Shown: piece by piece, positions 1 through 966 of the stretch | Position numbering within the stretch: the stretch's first letter is position 1 | Layout: each line of letters starts with the position of its first letter | NCBI GenBank assembly: GCA_017440465.1 | Contig: JAFSHF010000019.1 | Span: 1 to 64,000, forward strand | Reading direction: 5' to 3' | Source of the DNA: Clostridia bacterium | GTDB taxonomy: Bacteria; Bacillota; Clostridia; Oscillospirales; QAKW01 | Length of the DNA stretch: 64,000 bases | Position numbers and translations under genes: made by a program | Notes under the pieces: model-generated | Seen by the model: the letters and a program-made list of their open reading frames with translations, nothing else | Database searches by the model: none | Told to the model about the DNA's origin: nothing

Positions 1-24
1 ACAACATAATAACCATTATGTGAT
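1..24 (+). repeat. dif-like recombination site, copy 1
   Basis: This 24-bp dyad is repeated exactly at 64-87. Its core is CATAA, a 6-bp centre TAACCA (10-15) and TTATGT. That matches the layout of Xer/dif sites, where two roughly 11-bp arms flank a 6-bp crossover region (E. coli dif also has CATAA-N6-TTATGT). The left arm is cut by the window edge. The neighbouring tyrosine recombinase gene makes a recombination role plausible, but that role is inferred. Confidence 0.55.
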
Positions 25-25
25 G

Positions 26-51
26 CCGATGTTTTTTAACATCGGTTTTTT
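26..51 (+). terminator. Rho-independent terminator between the two dif-like sites
   Basis: An 8-bp stem CCGATGTT (26-33) and AACATCGG (38-45) with a TTTT loop is followed by six T (46-51). It works only on the + strand, so it would stop transcription entering from the left, outside the window. Confidence 0.8.
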
Positions 52-63
52 AGACGATAAGCA

Positions 64-87
64 ACAACATAATAACCATTATGTGAT
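64..87 (+). repeat. dif-like recombination site, copy 2
   Basis: Exact 24-bp copy of 1-24, offset by 63 bp, with the same 6-bp centre TAACCA (73-78) and inverted arms. It lies 37 bp beyond the stop codon of the tyrosine recombinase gene. Direct orientation relative to copy 1 would allow deletion of the 63-bp unit between them. Confidence 0.6.
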
Positions 88-90
88 ATT

Positions 91-126
91 TAAACCGCTA
101 CCGATGTGTGGCGGTTTTATTTTTTA
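91..126 (+). terminator. Second + strand terminator after dif-like site 2
   Basis: Stem AAACCGC (92-98) and GCGGTTT (111-117) is followed by a T-rich tract to 125. The T tract is on the + strand, so this again faces transcription from the left. It overlaps the stop codon of the convergent recombinase gene. Confidence 0.65.
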
Positions 127-966
127 TAGGATCAATCGCATATTTTCCAAGCGGCGTCGATGCTCGGCACCGGTCGTGATAATATAAATACGCGTTGTGT
201 TGATATTGGAATGGCCGAGAATATCCGCCAACTTCGCGATATCTTTTTCGATCCCATAAAACGTGCGGGCAAATAAATGCCTTAAATTATGCGGGAATAC
301 CTTTTGCGGCGAAACTCCCGCCTGCACGCAAAGTTCCTTCATCTGCCGCCAGATATTACTGCGATCCAACGGCTTGCCGCTTTTGGTCATAAACAGTATG
401 CCGGACACAATTCCCTGCTCTGCCGCATAGCGCAGCAATTTTTTCTGCAAAGCCTTCACAATGAATATCTTTCGGGTCTTCCCTTTGCAGGAGACCACGG
501 CTTCGCCGCGTCGGACGGCTTCCACTGTTATACTCTGCAATTCACTGACACGAATGCCTGTCCCGCAGATGGTCTGAACGACGAGAGAAAGACGTTCGTT
601 ATTCTTTTGCTCTGCCGCTCGGACAAGGGCTTTATATTCCGCCTTGGTCAGTTCCTTCTCCTCCGAGCAATAGGCTTCCTTTTGCACCTTGAATTGTTTG
701 ACACAAAGATCGTGCCGCCCCGCAAACCGCAGGAACGCATTCAAGGCAGCCAGCATCGAATTGGCACTTCTGACCGCATATTTGCGCCCTAACAGTTCCT
801 TATAATTCAGGATCAACCCTTTATCCGGTATACGATCGGCGGCATACTCCATAAAGCAGCCAATATCGTACATATATTTCTGAATGGTTGCCTCCGCTTT
901 TTCATTCTCCAATAAATAATTCTTGAATGAGTGCATTGTTTGGTTTGTGATCATTCTTTTTTTCAT
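124..966 (-). CDS. Tyrosine recombinase (XerC/XerD/phage integrase family)
   Basis: A 280-residue site-specific recombinase expected to cut and rejoin DNA through a phosphotyrosine intermediate. The N-terminal SAM-like DNA-binding domain covers about residues 10-90. The catalytic domain shows the full active-site set: Arg139 (GTGIRVSEL), Lys163, His226 and Arg229 (HNLRH), His252 (LGHSNINTT) and nucleophile Tyr261. Length fits Xer-type enzymes. The ATG at 966 has GGAGG about 8 nt upstream. It is transcribed alone, convergent with whatever lies left of the window, and two dif-like sites sit directly behind its 3' end. It could be a host Xer paralogue or the integrase of a small element; the adjacent direct repeats favour a self-associated recombinase. 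Confidence 0.9.
   Translation of the reverse strand: MKKRMITNQTMHSFKNYLLENEKAEATIQKYMYDIGCFMEYAADRIPDKGLILNYKELLGRKYAVRSANSMLAALNAFLRFAGRHDLCVKQFKVQKEAYCSEEKELTKAEYKALVRAAEQKNNERLSLVVQTICGTGIRVSELQSITVEAVRRGEAVVSCKGKTRKIFIVKALQKKLLRYAAEQGIVSGILFMTKSGKPLDRSNIWRQMKELCVQAGVSPQKVFPHNLRHLFARTFYGIEKDIAKLADILGHSNINTTRIYIITTGAEHRRRLENMRLIL

Follow-up and report, generated by a model that had tools for sequence, protein, structure and literature searches.

The two direct repeats at the left edge of the window (the whole 64,000-nucleotide stretch that was analysed) are in all likelihood the recombinase-proximal end of an invertible promoter, which would be flipped by the adjacent recombinase and which carries a movable terminator unit. 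Judged from sequence, an invertible promoter is very likely, and the locus fits the sequence-level definition of an inverton: inverted sites flank a segment both in related loci and, across contigs C11 and C15, in the same genome, and the segment holds a promoter that faces the genes in one orientation (with an extended -10 in C15, L046, L048 and L049). In the proposed mechanism, the tyrosine recombinase would exchange strands at the 6-bp core TAACCA between inverted sites and so flip the intervening DNA. The flipped DNA would carry one outward promoter, TTGCCA-N17-TATAAT, and a long terminator-like hairpin would lie behind it, as it does in relatives. When the promoter points away from the recombinase, the surface-protein operon on C15 would be on; with the promoter pointing toward the recombinase, the operon would be off and transcription would be halted by the terminator at 92–117. 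Directly observed are the sites, their orientation, the promoter, the terminators, the synteny and four arrangements in four relatives, and we infer that the recombinase itself carries out the inversion.

Recombination sites and recombinase at the contig edge

The sites are two exact 24-nucleotide copies of ACAACATAATAACCATTATGTGAT on the forward strand, at 1–24 and 64–87, with a start-to-start distance of 63 bp. About 7e-6 exact 24-mer repeats of any kind would be expected by chance in 64 kb. The original prediction described two exact 24-bp dyads 63 bp apart; the copies and their spacing hold, but the perfect dyad, ACATAAT-AACC-ATTATGT, spans 18 bp and is shorter than the repeat. The dyad can also be read as ACATAA-TAACCA-TTATGT, and on this reading the predicted CATAA-N6-TTATGT core with its 6-bp centre TAACCA is correct. 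The inner copy (site b, 1–24, core TAACCA) lies at the contig edge and is homologous to the inner site of the related loci L046, L048 and L049. Site a (64–87) is a direct repeat of b on the recombinase side, and its counterpart in relatives lies just past the recombinase stop.

Across the genome, the 18-bp core is found three times only, compared with no match for a reversed-pattern control (the genome is an incomplete MAG, 65%). The third copy lies on another contig of the same MAG, near its start (C15:124–141), and is inverted relative to both window sites. The suggested search for further site copies yielded one more core copy, in inverted orientation, and the count of three speaks against the suggestion that the window holds the end of an array.

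Each site is followed by a forward-strand intrinsic terminator, as predicted, judged by folding energy and z-score. The first (25–46; −12.2 kcal/mol, z −3.4) is terminator T of the movable 63-bp unit; it is directed out of the switch, which in the window means toward the recombinase. The second (92–117; −13.8 kcal/mol, z −3.8) lies between the switch and the recombinase gene, where it would block read-in from the switch. A terminator against transcription from the switch into the recombinase occurs at 73 of 112 loci, with 0/112 in the other direction and 4/112 in shuffled sequences.

The adjacent gene (124–966, reverse strand) encodes an Xer-like tyrosine recombinase of 280 amino acids (Pfam PF00589, 1e-26), the presumed invertase. 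Its adjacency to the sites had been noted correctly, although its end lies 36 bp, not 37 bp, from the nearer site. The catalytic R-K-HxxR-H-Y set of tyrosine recombinases is present, and residues R139, K163, H226, R229, H252 and Y261 are invariant in 173 of 173 sequences. Of 394 genomes sampled from the order, 108 encode a close relative (E 1e-60).

We consider it extremely improbable that the repeats are the host dif site, served by XerC/D-type dimer resolution. The arms are dif-like, and the recombinase aligns to the XerD and XerA families and to the XerC-like structure 4a8e. Its scores against the XerC, XerD and XerA models are, however, 107–137 bits, far under the cut-offs (107–110 bits against 330–335 for the XerC/XerD dimer recombinases, the XerD cut-off being itself strict and passed by 4 of 14 named control genomes). 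Because of these low scores, and because close relatives have separate XerD-like genes scoring 305–334 bits, the recombinase does not appear to belong to the host Xer system; there are also three sites instead of one. A search of the family for a Bacillus-like dif gave matches at control level. An integron or attC array was ruled out, with 50 bits against a cut-off of 265 for the integron integrase model and three site copies only.

A promoter segment between inverted sites

On C15, a promoter with an extended -10 (TTGCCA-N17-TATAAT) stands before the site. The genes after the site encode a Cys-rich KTR protein, a TetR regulator, a SipW-like signal peptidase, camelysin/TasA-family proteins and a BspA-type repeat protein. 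In L048, the recombinase, the switch and the KTR, TetR and SipW genes are contiguous on one contig, and these three genes show 61%, 79% and 83% identity, respectively, between C15 and L048. Because everything is contiguous in L048, the left ends of C15 and of C11, the window contig, can be placed on either side of one switch. The sequences thus indicate that a single switch between C11 and C15 broke the assembly; a stretch of some 140 bp of the segment, with the hairpin in it, is presumably absent between them, both the length and the hairpin content being estimated by alignment and comparison with L046. The original prediction that the element continues to the left of the window was borne out, in that the missing inverted partner lies across the promoter segment on C15.

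Two further features were seen in this operon. A conserved terminator-like hairpin, GAGCCTGTGCCATTTAATCG...CGATTATGGTGCAGGTTTTTTC, is located in the leader that precedes the KTR gene (L044:222–290, on C15; about 9280–9360 in L048), and it perhaps adds a second layer of control by attenuation. This hairpin has no Rfam match, and an Rfam search of leaders and switches returned no family. Ahead of the TetR gene is a conserved palindrome, TGTAGTAAA-NNN-TTACA (L044:624–640; also in L051 and L052), probably an operator for autoregulation.

An inverted site pair is found just downstream of the gene (within 900 bp) at 131 of 172 related recombinase loci, and many of the remaining loci stop at a contig edge inside the switch. 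The presence of equivalent sites downstream of the recombinase in relatives upholds the earlier assignment of the Xer-type sites to the adjacent gene. The usual site-to-site distance is about 262 bp and encloses the promoter and the hairpin. The arms are ACATAA/TTATGT in most loci and ACATTA/TAATGT or ACAGAA/TTCTGT in more distant members, and 70 different 6-bp cores occur across the family. None of the 70 cores is palindromic; about one would be expected, so this is not significant. The enclosed DNA is homologous between loci, with the long hairpin at about 0.38 of its length and then the outward promoter. Segment hairpins were folded sequence by sequence and have a mean z of −3.6. T-runs next to the hairpin are commoner opposite to the promoter direction (31/60) than along it (13/60), and for this reason the hairpin may serve, in the off state, to keep read-through from the recombinase side out of the genes.

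These loci bear on the earlier reading of the window sites as the remnant of an excision (a minimal cassette or array) or as the end of a mobile element that exploits Xer, which is now highly improbable. Although the dif-like arms (CATAA-N6-TTATG) and the combination of direct repeats with an Xer-like recombinase are what such a reading would lead one to expect, the partner site is inverted and a promoter is enclosed, as in the 131 loci, and the genome has three copies only. An excised cassette is contradicted by the inverted partner across a promoter-bearing segment, and an Xer-exploiting element by sites that in relatives enclose a promoter segment about 262 bp long. The recombinase and switch are located on chromosomes and large plasmids, and the one full-length phage-labelled match above 40% (at 43%) is to a protein near which no inverted pair was found. 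An IMEX, in which phage or plasmid genes would lie between dif-like sites, was ruled out because the segment of about 262 bp in relatives is too short.

Both promoter orientations occur across loci, in keeping with an invertible promoter. Consensus-based promoter calls at the 131 loci placed 94 toward the recombinase, 30 away from it and 7 as unclear. Recombinase-facing promoters are thus about three times as common as operon-facing ones in assembled loci, an excess that suggests an off bias. Of 80 contigs, 10 break off in the 400 bp downstream of the recombinase gene and 1 in the 400 bp upstream; such a downstream excess is an indirect sign of inversion, to be expected where mixed orientations disrupt assembly.

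The first and second downstream genes at 41 loci include TetR, SPFH/Band-7, zinc-ribbon, BspA-type repeat, collagen-like, dockerin/cohesin, camelysin and signal peptidase families. The switch layout is also present on large circular plasmid records of 335–387 kb (L269, L272 and L273, from Monoglobus and Subdoligranulum), and in L273 tandem sites lie on the gene side, 55 bp apart. One genome, G046, has at least 15 recombinase paralogs (L126–L140), most with a switch and with the core TTGATA in common, so that recombination between loci would be possible. Orthogonal cores within genomes were unsupported: the G046 paralogs mostly use one core, and chance would account for distinct cores elsewhere.

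The terminator unit and the spacing of sites

A unit of 62–63 bp between two direct sites, holding a terminator hairpin, is present in L046, L048, L049 and the window; the hairpin is imperfect in L048. With the sites lettered a to c, the promoter as P and the terminator as T, the unit lies next to the genes in L046 (a P< b T c) and L048 (a P> b T c), and the promoter faces the recombinase in the former and the genes in the latter. In L049 the order is a T b P<, with the promoter toward the recombinase and the unit on the recombinase side, and the window joined to C15 reads a T b / P> c, with the promoter toward the genes and the unit on the recombinase side. The same hairpin of T adjoins the genes in L046 and L048 and the recombinase in L049. 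All four arrangements predicted by inversion are present, one per close relative; the four states are drawn from four species, and that of the window was joined from two contigs. The terminator of the unit points out of the switch in every case, a constancy that inversion requires. A shorter unit, of tandem sites about 31 bp apart, likewise lies on opposite sides at two other loci, next to the recombinase in L075 and next to the genes in L087, and holds no terminator.

The side on which the unit ends up would depend on whether inversion uses the nearer or the farther of the tandem sites. The four states would differ in whether the promoter faces the genes and in whether a terminator stands in between. 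With three sites, a single recombinase could set promoter direction and terminator position separately, and we infer expression levels of off, damped and full for these states. Deletion between the close tandem sites is presumably disfavoured because 31–63 bp of DNA would be too short for looping.

A plain two-state invertible promoter, in which a passive duplication gave rise to the second tandem site and its terminator, neither having a regulatory role, is a possible but doubtful alternative. Most relatives have a single site per side, and tandem-site units elsewhere often have no terminator. At the other tandem-site loci (30–39, 53, 63 and 77 bp) a clear terminator is mostly absent. Against this, the terminator unit is kept in four species, on differing sides and outward every time. 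Judged on only four loci, those whose tandem unit carries a terminator, the balance tilts somewhat toward the unit acting in a four-state manner.

Site-to-site lengths cluster at about 209, 220, 230, 241, 251, 262, 272, 283, 292, 309 and 318 bp, in steps of about one helical turn (period near 10.5–11 bp). At periods near 11 bp the Rayleigh R was 0.57–0.61 whether the loci had been thinned at 90, 80, 70 or 65% protein identity, and 0 of 1000 sets with phase-destroying jitter reached the observed value. The gene-to-site distance is without periodicity at thinning to 80% or below (p 0.48–0.72). With the dominant 258–266 class removed, a test of phase toward 262 gave p 0.0002 at 70% thinning, 0.003 at 65% and 0.09 at 60% (16 loci). 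Among tandem spacings, 30–34 bp is about three turns, 53 bp about five and 62–63 bp about six, while 39 and 77 bp fit more poorly. We lean slightly toward the combined view of a natural four-state promoter and terminator switch with site spacings in whole helical turns throughout the family.

Relation to known switches

XerC/XerD-dif shares with the present system a 6-bp centre between CATAA/TTATG arms and the recombinase superfamily, but here there are three sites, an inverted partner and an intergenic switch, and relatives have separate Xer genes. The fim switch uses two recombinases and two sites, whose sequence is unrelated to the present one. E. coli fimS, with FimB/FimE, is alike in having its promoter within an invertible segment beside tyrosine recombinase genes (PMC2784873). 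The C. difficile cwpV/RecV system also combines an XerC/D-family recombinase, inverted repeats (about 195 bp apart), an intrinsic terminator and a surface protein target (PMC2784873). In cwpV, however, the promoter lies outside the inverted DNA rather than inside as here, the terminator forms in the OFF transcript and recV is not adjacent (PMC2784873).

Gut invertons from PhaseFinder, including group 139, are similar in having inverted sites around a promoter, an adjacent tyrosine recombinase, nearby surface genes and an occurrence in Clostridia (PMC11892184). In the available part of that account, inverton group 139 is linked to invertase group 35 in Clostridia by statistics, and its repeat motif is described as previously unpublished. 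These two groups are probably the published counterpart of the present family, although the same part of the account mentions neither a terminator unit that moves, nor four states, nor helical phasing. A literature search for three-site or helically phased invertons found nothing relevant; the family itself is probably covered by PMC11892184, while no published description of the four-state arrangement and phasing was found.

An odd repeat at a contig edge thereby becomes a defined phase-variation module, and surface, secretion, zinc-ribbon and SPFH genes are among its predicted targets. The terminator unit, if the four-state reading is true, would make this a natural switch that uses more than two states. 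The series of segment lengths is a clean natural setting in which to ask whether short-range inversion by tyrosine recombinases is constrained by helical phasing.
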